Shown: in pieces, positions 8,351 to 42,696 of the stretch
Layout of the letters: each line of letters opens with the position of its first letter
Position numbering within the stretch: the first letter of the stretch is position 1
NCBI GenBank assembly: GCA_902527045.1
Contig: CABZNL010000001.1
Location: forward strand, 1-64,000
Direction: 5' to 3'
Source: an uncultured Alphaproteobacteria bacterium
GTDB lineage: Bacteria > Pseudomonadota > Alphaproteobacteria > HIMB59
DNA: 64,000 nucleotides
Program-made: the position numbers and the translations under genes
Notes under the pieces: generated by a model
What the model was told of the DNA's origin: nothing
What the model saw: only the letters and a program-made list of their open reading frames with translations
Database searches by the model: none

Positions 8351-9549
8351 TTTAATAAATCTAATAGTGATTTAGCTTTCAAATAATTTTCATGATACTC
8401 ATTTTTAGCAGTGCTATCTAAAATTACACCACTAGCTGCAAATACTTCATTATTTTTTTTAAAATTTAGTATAGACCTTATGATGATATTAAAACTCATA
8501 TCTTGTTTAGAGCGAAAGTAACCAAAAGAACCAGTATAAATTCGTCTGGGTTCTTTTTCTTCTTTATTAAGAAGTTTTAAAGTATTGATTTTTGGACATC
8601 CAATAACTGAACCTCCTGGCATCATTGCTTTAATTATTTCCGATAACCTTACATTATCAAGAAGTGTTCCTGAAATCTGAGAGACATTGTGGAAAATATA
8701 TTGGTATTTTTGTACAAATTTTAAATTTTGTATTTTAACTGAATTTGCCTTGGTAATACGACTTAAATCATTTCTTTCTAAATCAACGATCATGTTGTGC
8801 TCTTTATCCTCTTTTTGATTATTTTCAAAAAAGATCCTCGCTTGTTTTGTTGATTTTATTTTATCTCTGCTTACTGTTCCTGCTATTGGGGAAGTAACTA
8901 TTTTTTTCCCTCTTACTTTAAATAAGTTTTCAGGAGAGCAGCTAATTATATTAAAATTTTTGTTTCTTACGCAAAAAGACTCAGGACTAAGATTTTTTTT
9001 CATCAAATCAAAAAATAAATTAACAACATCAAGTTCTTTTTTATTGGAATATTTTTGAGCAATTTTTATTTGATAGGTTTCTCCTGCTCTAATATTTTTT
9101 TTAAATTTATTAAAGATTTTTTCATAGACTTTAACATTTGGACTTACAGTTATTTTACTATTATTTGAATTATTCTTTTTTAAAATTTTCAAATCTTCAA
9201 GTAATTCTGTTTTAGATTTGGTTATCACTTTAATTTTTTTATCTAAAATAATTTTCGTTTGTGGACGAAAGAAAACTCCCTCAGGAAAAGACGAACTATC
9301 TTTATTTACCTTTAAATTTATATTTTTACAAAGTAATTCATATCCAAAGAAACCAATATAACAATCATATGGTTTGTTTGATTTAAATCGTTCTAATTTA
9401 TTTAAGAATTTATCTAAATTACCTATATTTAAATTAATTTTTTCAACAAAATCTGTATATATTTCAAAATTATTTTTTTCTGAATTTCTAAAAATTATTA
9501 AATCTTTGTCAGATTTAAGTAAAATACTAAGTATTTCAGAATTAACCAT
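8347..9549 (-). CDS. pabB: aminodeoxychorismate synthase component I
   Basis: GETYQIKIAQ, SPIAGTVSRDK, NMIVDLERNDLSRI, MMPGGSVIGCPK, YTGSFGYF chorismate-binding motifs. Confidence 0.88.
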   Translation of the reverse strand: MVNSEILSILLKSDKDLIIFRNSEKNNFEIYTDFVEKINLNIGNLDKFLNKLERFKSNKPYDCYIGFFGYELLCKNINLKVNKDSSSFPEGVFFRPQTKIILDKKIKVITKSKTELLEDLKILKKNNSNNSKITVSPNVKVYEKIFNKFKKNIRAGETYQIKIAQKYSNKKELDVVNLFFDLMKKNLSPESFCVRNKNFNIISCSPENLFKVRGKKIVTSPIAGTVSRDKIKSTKQARIFFENNQKEDKEHNMIVDLERNDLSRITKANSVKIQNLKFVQKYQYIFHNVSQISGTLLDNVRLSEIIKAMMPGGSVIGCPKINTLKLLNKEEKEPRRIYTGSFGYFRSKQDMSFNIIIRSILNFKKNNEVFAASGVILDSTAKNEYHENYLKAKSLLDLLK

Positions 9550-40197: not shown

Positions 40198-40617
40198 GTG
40201 CATATTCAAGTAAAAATATTAATTTTTGCAACTGGCTGGATGGTATTTAGAGCAGTTGGCTCAGGTCTATTTCTTACCCTTGGCGCTATAGGGAGTGAGA
40301 GATCTGCATCATCAGATTGGACTATAGCATTTCTTGGCGATTTCGTGATTGGGACAACTGCATTAATTCTTGCATATAAGATATGGAAAAATCCCTCTGC
40401 TTTACTTTGGGGAATTTTGCTAGCTTGGAATGCTGTTGGAATATTTGATTTATTTGGAGCGTTATCACATTCTTTTACAGCTCCTTTCTCACCTTTTCCA
40501 GAGATTGGAATTAATGAAATGAGCATAAGAACAATTTTAAGTTTAAACACATTAATACAATTTATTGCTCTTTTATTAATGTTTCGACCACAGGTGAAAG
40601 CCTATTTTAGAGTTTAA
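40198..40617 (+). CDS. membrane protein, unknown
   Basis: ORF extends to 40162 but GTG at 40198 is a more likely start; several TM segments (VHIQVKILIFATGWMVFRAVGSGLFL...). Confidence 0.65.
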   Translation: MHIQVKILIFATGWMVFRAVGSGLFLTLGAIGSERSASSDWTIAFLGDFVIGTTALILAYKIWKNPSALLWGILLAWNAVGIFDLFGALSHSFTAPFSPFPEIGINEMSIRTILSLNTLIQFIALLLMFRPQVKAYFRV

Positions 40618-40679
40618 AAAGAATATATAAATTAAGTTAATGGTTCTGTGGTGAAACGGATATCACACTTGACGACGGA
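40616..40679 (+). repeat. left copy of a 64-bp direct repeat containing the 5' half of tRNA-Arg (truncated tRNA)
   Basis: By eye 60/64 identical to 41763-41826 (offset 1147 bp); identity ends just after the anticodon. Confidence 0.92.
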
Positions 40680-40752
40680 AATCCTACGTCTCTTTAATTC
40701 ATTTATTATCAATATTATTCTGAGAGCTTAAACAACATTTTATCTATGTACC

Positions 40753-40770
40753 CCGTAATGTGCCCGTAAT
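40753..40770 (+). repeat. CCGTAAT direct-repeat pair, 11-bp period (candidate integrase arm sites, left)
   Basis: CCGTAATGTGCCCGTAAT; CCGTAAT at 40753 and 40764. Confidence 0.55.
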
Positions 40771-40805
40771 AAAAATAAAATATTTTTTTTGAATTTTAAC
40801 TTTTT

Positions 40806-41708
40806 TTATTTTAAAAAATTTATTGGTAATTTAACAATAGAATGGTTGTGAAATTTTTTATCATTTTTATCATGCATAAATAATTCATATTTTTCGATTG
40901 TTTGAGAAAATAATTTTTTGCATTCTGTCTTATCAAGTAACTTTTCACATTTAGACTCCGCATTCACACCATCAAAATAAATGACTCGCTGTGGAATTAT
41001 CTCGGTATTAAATACTTTTTTGTAACGTGAAATTGCAGATGCGTATAATCCATATCTTAGATTTAGTTCCTCACCCTTAGATGTATTACTTGTTCCTTTA
41101 AAATCTACTTTTAAAATGCCATCTATCCATACCTTCATGAAACCTTTGTCCTCGTCTGGATGCCAATTTGTGTTAAAAATTATTTCTGTCCATTGGCCTA
41201 AAAGTTCATCATTTCTTTTTAAAACTATTTCAGAGTCCTCAAAAGAGTCATTATTCCTGTTGAAAGTCAGTCCTGCATGAGTGTGACGAAACATAACTAA
41301 AACTTTAGATGGATTATGTCTTTTCCATTGAATTAAAGACATTGTAGCTGGGGCAATAGAGTTAAAGTCTTTAGGAAGCAAAATATTAAACTTATACCAC
41401 TTCACTTTTTTCCACTCTTCGTGGCTATAATATATTTCAGACCTCTCTCTATCAGTATCACAGTCACTAGATTTAGGCTCTTCTCCGCATTCTCCATTGT
41501 TAACTTCAAACATAATAGATTTATCTCCAATAATTGAATTATTACTCACTGAAATTGGATTTTTAGCATATTGAGAAATTAATGGATGAAATTCTTCAGG
41601 AATTATTTCTCCAAAACCATCTTCTTTTAGAGCCTTTTTAATTTTATTAAAATTCGAGCCAAGCACTAAACTGGGTAGAAATATAAATAGAATAAAGAAT
41701 ATTTTCAT
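40806..41708 (-). CDS. secreted polysaccharide lyase-like protein (heparin-lyase-I / concanavalin-like fold)
   Basis: Signal peptide MKIFFILFIFLPSLVLG; DRERSEIYYSHEEWKKVKWYKFNILLPKDF, MSLIQWKRH, WTEIIFNTNWHPDEDKGFMKVWIDG, RYGLYASAISR. Confidence 0.72.
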   Translation of the reverse strand: MKIFFILFIFLPSLVLGSNFNKIKKALKEDGFGEIIPEEFHPLISQYAKNPISVSNNSIIGDKSIMFEVNNGECGEEPKSSDCDTDRERSEIYYSHEEWKKVKWYKFNILLPKDFNSIAPATMSLIQWKRHNPSKVLVMFRHTHAGLTFNRNNDSFEDSEIVLKRNDELLGQWTEIIFNTNWHPDEDKGFMKVWIDGILKVDFKGTSNTSKGEELNLRYGLYASAISRYKKVFNTEIIPQRVIYFDGVNAESKCEKLLDKTECKKLFSQTIEKYELFMHDKNDKKFHNHSIVKLPINFLK

Positions 41709-41716
41709 AGATTTGC

Positions 41717-41734
41717 CCGTAATGATTCCGTAAT
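41717..41734 (+). repeat. CCGTAAT direct-repeat pair, 11-bp period (candidate integrase arm sites, right)
   Basis: CCGTAATGATTCCGTAAT; CCGTAAT at 41717 and 41728. Confidence 0.55.
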
Positions 41735-41762
41735 CAACATTGTATTGAATTTTATTATTAAA

Positions 41763-41826
41763 AAAAAGAGTATATAAATCAAGCTAATGGTTCTGTGGTG
41801 AAACGGATATCACACTTGACTACGGA
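41763..41826 (+). repeat. right copy of the 64-bp direct repeat (5' flank and 5' half of intact tRNA-Arg)
   Basis: Matches 40616-40679 with 4 mismatches. Confidence 0.92.
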
Positions 41827-41863
41827 TCAAGAATTCAGGGTTCGAATCCTTGCAGAACCGCCA
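41789..41863 (+). tRNA. tRNA-Arg(ACG), CCA encoded
   Basis: Cloverleaf: acceptor GGTTCTG/CAGAACC, anticodon stem CTTGA-CTACGGA-TCAAG, T arm CAGGG-TTCGAAT-CCTTG, GCCA end. Confidence 0.93.
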
Positions 41864-41865
41864 AT

Positions 41866-42696
41866 TTAAACTTTTAAATTATCAATTAATCTAACTTTAC
41901 CTTTGAAGATTGCATAAAAAAGTCTGGCTTGAGATAAAGTACCTACAAAACTAAGATCAGTATCATTTCTGAATTCAAAATAATCAAACTTATCAATATC
42001 TTGTGATTTCATAAAATCATTTGCTCTTTGGTTAGCGGTCTCAATGTCTAAGGACTCTTCAAGAGAGATTATAAAATTTTTAATTTTTTTATGAAAATCT
42101 ACAAAATCTTGAGTTTGCTTTTTACTTAGTTTTTTATTTCTTGATGAATAAGCTATTCCCTCTTCGTGTCTTTGTGTTGGGACAGAAACTAAGTCTAAAG
42201 ATTTGTATTTTTCTTCAATAAATTTCTCAATGATCTTTAGTTGCTGATAATCTTTTTCGCCAAAATAAACTTTATTACTTTTTATAATTGAAAAAAATTT
42301 ATCAAGAACAGTGATAACACCGTCAAAGTGTCCTTTTCTAAATTTATCACAAAGAATATCTTTAAAATTTTTATTATTCAGTAGCGTTTGATCATTTTTA
42401 AATATTTCTTCAGATGAGGGTTCAAATAGTATGTCTACCTCATTGTCTGTGCAGAAATCATAGTCAAAACCTTTATTCCTTGGGTAAGTTTCAAAATCCT
42501 CTTTACTACTAAATTGTTTTTCATTAACAAAAATACTCACAATAGTTTTGTGATTATCTTTTTTTGATTGCTTGATTAATTCACCATGTCCTTTGTGAAG
42601 AGCTCCCATTGTTGGCACATAACCAATTGAATATTTTCGATTTTGATAAGCGCTCAAATAGGACTGCAAATTAGAAATATCTTTAATTATCAGCAT
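41866..42696 (-). CDS. panC: pantoate--beta-alanine ligase
   Basis: GYVPTMGALHKGHGELI, YFGEKDYQQL, EGIAYSSRNKKL. Confidence 0.93.
   Translation of the reverse strand: MLIIKDISNLQSYLSAYQNRKYSIGYVPTMGALHKGHGELIKQSKKDNHKTIVSIFVNEKQFSSKEDFETYPRNKGFDYDFCTDNEVDILFEPSSEEIFKNDQTLLNNKNFKDILCDKFRKGHFDGVITVLDKFFSIIKSNKVYFGEKDYQQLKIIEKFIEEKYKSLDLVSVPTQRHEEGIAYSSRNKKLSKKQTQDFVDFHKKIKNFIISLEESLDIETANQRANDFMKSQDIDKFDYFEFRNDTDLSFVGTLSQARLFYAIFKGKVRLIDNLKV

Follow-up and report, generated by a model that had tools for sequence, protein, structure and literature searches.

The tycheposons of Hackl et al. 2023 are reportedly marine, cargo-carrying elements that are integrated at tRNA genes and encode their own tyrosine recombinase. 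The tRNA islands identified by Islander are marked by a tRNA gene and a displaced fragment of it, and they include anticodon-centered crossovers and tandem arrays (PMC4383910). Fragments of the 5' type are rare among them (159 of 3919), and Islander drops candidates that have no integrase or measure less than 2 kb (PMC4383910). In the sections of PMC10872708 drawn on here, tycheposons are given a size of 4-200 kb, and the additive flexible islands fGI-2 of the Methylophilaceae, a group of streamlined aquatic bacteria, are described as variable cassettes of 330 bp to 42 kb between repeated tRNA fragments, where tRNA-Lys fragments recur and the last 20 bp of the tRNA are used. Arm sites, replacement of the integrase in its slot, and restoration of a tRNA 5' half are not reported for fGI-2 in those sections (PMC10872708). 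CALIN integron arrays consist of small cassettes without an integrase that carry folded attC sites and are thought to be mobilized in trans (PMC11389934), while phage satellites, including the PICMIs, are small elements in an integrated state that presumably rely on a helper, where PICMIs encode an integrase, AlpA, and a primase (PMC10803314). In a published account of HIMB59 islands, tRNA is mentioned once, as absent at island borders, and panC is unmentioned (PMC10734472).

The window analyzed in this study is a stretch of 64,000 nucleotides from an uncultured alphaproteobacterium of the HIMB59 clade. It contains a unit of 1,147 bp (about 40680-41826) between a stranded 5' half of tRNA-Arg(ACG) and the intact gene. 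This unit is probably a non-autonomous, site-specifically integrated mini-island, or cassette, moved in trans by a tyrosine integrase. The parts of the locus were as follows.

40198-40617, forward strand: chromosomal left neighbor of 139 aa with weak similarity to DUF6962, found directly beside the tRNA in empty relatives
40642-40679, forward strand: stranded native tRNA-Arg 5' half, nt 1-38, with T33G in the anticodon loop; left attachment-site copy
40680-40751, no strand assigned: cassette left end, beginning with AATCCTACGTCTCTTTAATTCATT, conserved across the cassettes of the genus
40752-40770, forward strand: left paired site of 11-bp period, putative integrase arm-type pair
40806-41708, reverse strand: cargo gene for a secreted polysaccharide-lyase-like protein (PF14099) of 300 aa, its start 10 bp from the right arm pair
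41716-41734, forward strand: right paired site of 11-bp period, putative integrase arm-type pair, with the motif of the left pair
41735-41788, forward strand: cassette-borne upstream region or promoter of the restored tRNA
41789-41863, forward strand: intact tRNA-Arg(ACG), with the 5' half from the cassette and a native 3' half
41866-42696, reverse strand: panC, chromosomal right neighbor and anchor for the locus in relatives

An earlier note on this DNA had described an intact tRNA-Arg preceded by a truncated copy, with a single lyase-like gene between the two, and both observations were reproduced. ARAGORN called one intact tRNA-Arg(ACG) in the window, and the direct repeat (40616-40679 and 41763-41826) was 64 nt long, with 60 of 64 positions identical and a spacing of 1147. 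Of the four mismatches, three precede the tRNA and the fourth falls on nt 33 of the tRNA, within its anticodon loop. The similarity stopped just past this loop, and the crossover likely took place within it, at 41820-41826. The only gene between the copies matched PF14099 (Polysacc_lyase) with an E-value of 2.5e-24 and 86.8 bits (cut-off 29.9), and the N-terminus of its product is hydrophobic, as is usual for secretion signals. A comparison with the PDB gave a weak match to glucuronan lyase (E=0.079). The AlphaFold model of the protein was poor (pLDDT 57), and its Foldseek matches fit only a generic beta-jelly-roll; those to botulinum binding domains reflect a common lectin-like fold and are meaningless for the lyase. 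A search for a phage relative of the lyase found none.

The locus resembles the Islander islands, as an intact tRNA and a displaced fragment in the same orientation mark its two ends. However, the unit is shorter than 2 kb and holds one lyase gene and no integrase of its own, so it would be rejected by the Islander filters. It shares with fGI-2 the placement of variable cassettes between repeated tRNA fragments, while its repeated fragment is the 5' half rather than the tRNA end. Like tycheposons, it is marine, integrated at a tRNA, and equipped with cargo, but it is far smaller and lacks their hallmark tyrosine recombinase. The small size and missing integrase are shared with CALIN cassettes; unlike these, the cassettes described here attach at a tRNA gene, and they are bounded by tRNA 5' halves accompanied by arm pairs in direct orientation. 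The unit is also comparable to phage satellites, except that, in contrast to PICMIs, it encodes no integrase, regulator, or primase.

The locus was examined in relatives by reading about 15 kb around panC in 40 genomes and the window, with the tRNA present in 40 of these loci; most genomes of the genus are incomplete single-cell or metagenome assemblies. An extra tRNA-Arg 5' half was found in 23 of 40 loci and two or more in 8 of 40, giving 31 segments in total. The sister genome G010 had the arrangement of the window, and empty sites were found in G047, G030, G029, G018, G009, G038, G021, G042, and G039. In G047, whose panC is 95% identical, only 28 bp separate the tRNA from the end of the gene equivalent to that at 40198-40617. 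The 110-bp stretch ahead of the left tRNA copy matched empty sites at 0.93 (window and G047) and 0.97-0.98 (G024 or G051 against G021, G042, and G039), whereas the corresponding stretch ahead of the right copy matched them at 0.33-0.52. The left flank is therefore native and the right flank foreign, which bears out the proposal of the earlier note that the element came with a promoter and 5' half of its own and left the native half stranded. The empty sites and other cargo that the note had suggested looking for at this tRNA were both found, together with tandem arrays, so the refuting condition set by the note, one arrangement shared by all close relatives, did not hold and the outcome favors the island. 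The cassettes carry one or a few genes, and at least 10 cargo classes occurred at tRNA-Arg(ACG), including three divergent PF14099 lyases, a cupin, HNH/HIT proteins, phospholipase-D-like proteins, and several uncharacterized secreted proteins. With up to 3 mismatches allowed, the cassette start that follows the tRNA half (TATCCTACGTCTCTTTAATTCATTTATTATCAATAC) was present in 24 of 52 genomes, and the exact left end was found in 17 GTDB stretches, all from this genus, so the left end is genus-restricted. Some cassettes were without a clean left half, and some left ends were decayed. To the left of this hot spot, about 4.4 kb of extra DNA was present between the neighboring core genes for LactB and a 58-aa protein in G016, G028, G032, G004, G006, and G041.

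Inside each end of the unit is a feature that the earlier note had missed. The 7-mer CCGTAAT occurs there as two copies 11 bp apart in the same orientation (CCCGTAATGTGCCCGTAAT at 40752-40770 and CCCGTAATGATTCCGTAAT at 41716-41734). Shuffles gave a chance expectation of no such pairs in the window, and the draft genome of the organism (1,148,299 bases) contained these two and no others. Among the 52 genus genomes, 30 pair matches were found, all at tRNA-Arg(ACG) and within a few kb of panC on its contig, while reversed controls gave 0 matches. Regardless of cargo length, the left pair started 69-74 bp after the tRNA half, and the right pair was mostly 71-76 bp before the tRNA. The motif varied among cassettes (CCGTAAT, CCGTATA, CCGGTAC, GTGTGTAC, and GTGTGTTA), while the two ends of each cassette agreed in 10 of 10 cargo classes that were picked by eye (permutation p=3e-5). 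Because of this choice by eye, and because some members of the cupin class have a CCGTATA right end (G013, G034, and G008), the agreement is strong but not absolute. The window unit has matching putative integrase sites at both ends and no integrase, and in this it behaves like an element mobilized in trans.

Similar pairs accompany integrases elsewhere. In the genus, integrase-bearing elements at tRNA-Gly, Ala, Met, and Thr were examined for arm pairs, and each of the six phage-type integrases inspected was preceded by an 11-bp-period pair, which lay 12-26 bp ahead of its start codon and was imperfect in locus L173. Where another gene occupies this integrase slot, the distance from pair to start was 10 bp for the window lyase and 22 bp for the cargo genes at tRNA-Arg(TCG); it was also 22 bp for an integrase remnant described below. 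In several IMG/VR contigs with related integrases, two pairs about 230-260 bp apart bracket a tRNA 5' half beside the integrase, for example in L227 (tRNA-Val-like) and L246 (tRNA-Arg-like), whose tRNA identities were read by eye. The clearest autonomous and non-autonomous pair at one site is found at tRNA-Gly(GCC), where elements with an integrase (L167 and L180) and without one (L275; G011 contig 1:186500-196500) have the same ends and TTGTGAC arms. Since the same paired format lies upstream of the integrase and brackets attP in integrase-bearing relatives, the paired sites were concluded from sequence to be probable integrase arm-type sites. A cassette-like format with a different integrase was also observed in the GC-richer viral contig L300 (IMGVR_UViG_2684623105_000002), where a 10.5-kb element with a tRNA-Thr encodes a 422-aa integrase and has a GTGTGTACTGA pair at both ends (at 210 and 10665).

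Alternatively, the pairs could be promoter or regulator sites of the cargo gene rather than integrase arms. The right pair, at 10 bp from the lyase start codon, must overlap the 5' region of the gene, as such a role would predict. However, a matching pair sits at the other end, far from start codons and at a fixed distance from the tRNA half, and in phage contigs and integrase-bearing islands attP is flanked by pairs of this format, which leaves a purely regulatory function improbable. Regulation could be an additional role of the pairs.

The absence of an integrase from the unit, stated in the earlier note, was confirmed by a search that found no PF00589 match within it, and the genome-wide search for a tyrosine integrase that the note had proposed returned only two PF00589 genes in the 82% complete genome. 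These are probably XerC and XerD, given that nearly every genus genome has two such genes, one for 329 aa and the other for about 286 aa. Neither this 82% complete genome nor the set of genus integrases yielded an integrase with CCGTAAT-type arms. A search of IMG/VR with the arm motif gave 20 matches, none beside an integrase recognized by the integrase profile, and a search with exact patterns of the left end and tRNA half gave no viral contig. The GTGTGTACTGA arm type was considered as a helper and rejected, as it belonged to two unrelated GC-richer contigs with other integrases that have only the format in common.

Evidence of how the cassettes arose comes from the class carrying a cupin and a 134-aa gene. 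In 13 genomes, the right end of this class retains about 50 codons that, by resemblance and position, appear to derive from an integrase N-terminus, with a stop in most copies. A Pfam search with this piece gave no match, and no full-length integrase matching it was found in 162 genomes of the order. Its retention implies that cargo replaced the integrase in this class, and the cassette probably arose when cargo took the place of the integrase gene beside the right arm pair.

Comparisons between genomes indicated that the cassettes have spread horizontally. For example, the lyase genes of G028 and G040 are 99.2% identical while their flanking genes are 80.9% identical, and the cupin cargo of G025 and G006 is 95.8% identical with flanking genes at 71.3%. 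Lyase cassettes were also found at different array positions in different genomes. Cargo appears, from sequence matches, to move between tRNA sites as well: cassette G027.2 matches an integrase-bearing island at tRNA-Arg(TCT) over 2,035 bp with 92.6% identity, and G024.1, at tRNA-Arg(ACG), has 83% DNA identity over 1,392 bp with a cassette at tRNA-Pro(GGG). The latter (L278, G021 contig 6, 5243-7731) lacks an integrase and includes a tRNA fragment of the 3' type, and the cargo it has in common with G024.1 is phospholipase-D-like and HNH. A hybrid left end was observed in L181 (G011 contig 7, reverse strand, about 8472-8600), which is of the tRNA-Arg(TCG) type up to AACGGATA and then of the tRNA-Arg(ACG) type with the left end of an ACG cassette; its arms are CCGTATA on the left and TTGGCGG on the right. 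This hybrid suggests cross-site recombination, and its join upstream of the anticodon loop is unexplained by a simple crossover in that loop.

These observations bear on two further explanations of the locus. One is an old tandem duplication at the locus, which would have copied the tRNA 5' half and enclosed a resident gene; it would account for the 94% identity of the two repeats and for the same arrangement in the sister genome. Empty sites and the variety of cargo at the tRNA-Arg site refute it, and the arrays, the foreign right flank, the matched arm pairs, and the horizontal transfer also argue against it, so that it retains almost no probability. A more serious rival, although still an unlikely one, is that autonomous islands lost their integrase after integration and are now inert, with the pattern reflecting old insertions and homologous recombination at shared ends or tRNA halves. 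The integrase remnant in one class and the decay of some left ends would fit such a history, homologous recombination could transfer cassettes between relatives, and no helper was found in the searches of the own genome, the genus integrases, and the IMG/VR arm matches. In contrast, an inert island does not readily explain the many independent integrase-less cassettes with varied cargo, whose arms differ from one another but match internally, nor the transfer with both ends intact between genomes with flanks of 71-81% identity, nor the insertions in several lineages with empty sisters. The earlier note had left open a satellite, cassette, or decayed island mobilized in trans. The cassette part of this description is retained, while decayed island is too weak a term in light of the matched ends, the horizontal spread, and the position in the integrase slot, which together point to a recurrent non-autonomous cassette system in the genus.

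In the proposed mechanism of the trans-mobilized cassette, the circular form would consist of one gene and an attP that runs from the right arm pair through the tRNA promoter, the 5' half of tRNA-Arg, and a short left end to the left arm pair. At the predicted attP junction, TATCCTACGTCTC would link the tRNA 5' half, which follows the right arm pair, to the left arm pair. The paired arms would be bound by a tyrosine integrase from another source, such as a helper phage, a satellite, or an autonomous island, and strand exchange would take place in the anticodon loop of tRNA-Arg(ACG). The 5' half and promoter of the cassette would then restore the tRNA, leaving the old 5' half at the far left, and repeated insertion would build tandem arrays next to the tRNA. 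An autonomous ancestor would have become a cassette by substitution of cargo for the integrase beside the right arm pair.

A second recurring sequence was found among the cargo of tRNA islands. At least 22 secreted genes begin with a nearly invariant 50-bp module (ATGAAAACCCTCTTAGCCCTATTGTTATTAATCCCTAGTTTGAGTTGGGG) that encodes the signal peptide MKTLLALLLLIPSLSWG. The mature parts of these genes have no mutual similarity at E<=1e-4, and several of the genes are alginate or polysaccharide lyases. The module had 41 matches in 24 of 52 genomes and none in a reversed control (loci L176, L177, L178, L179, L181, L275, and L301-L330; for example, L275:6699-6748 and L181:7106-7155), and a tRNA was present in 14 of 30 fetched module loci. 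Its conservation begins at the ATG and ends with the signal peptide (0.47 upstream, 0.94 within, and 0.46 downstream), where the value of 0.94 partly stems from the selection of matches, unlike the drop at either flank and the leucine codons that the copies share. Some copies are orphans followed by a stop. The module had no match in the own genome, where the leader of the window lyase is only loosely similar to it, and its 30-base core had no exact match in IMG/VR. As a tentative possibility, these data may reflect a modular secretome, in which integrase-less cassettes at several tRNA genes would be moved in trans and new cargo, placed where the integrase used to be, would be expressed behind a reused 50-bp module that also serves as a recombination joint between unrelated genes. 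If so, leader, cargo, and attachment ends would be three interchangeable parts.

The window unit is a real, mobile, integrase-less single-gene cassette, one of many in the genus, and a variant of the known tRNA-island kind, with a helper presumably acting in trans. Islands of about 1 kb without an integrase slip past the usual island filters. As the arms differ between cassettes and match within them, they offer a direct test of which integrase moves which cassette. The cassettes also illustrate how an autonomous element may shrink to its ends and one gene when cargo enters the integrase slot. Through such cassettes, streamlined ocean genomes gain and lose single genes, many of them for secreted enzymes that degrade polysaccharides.
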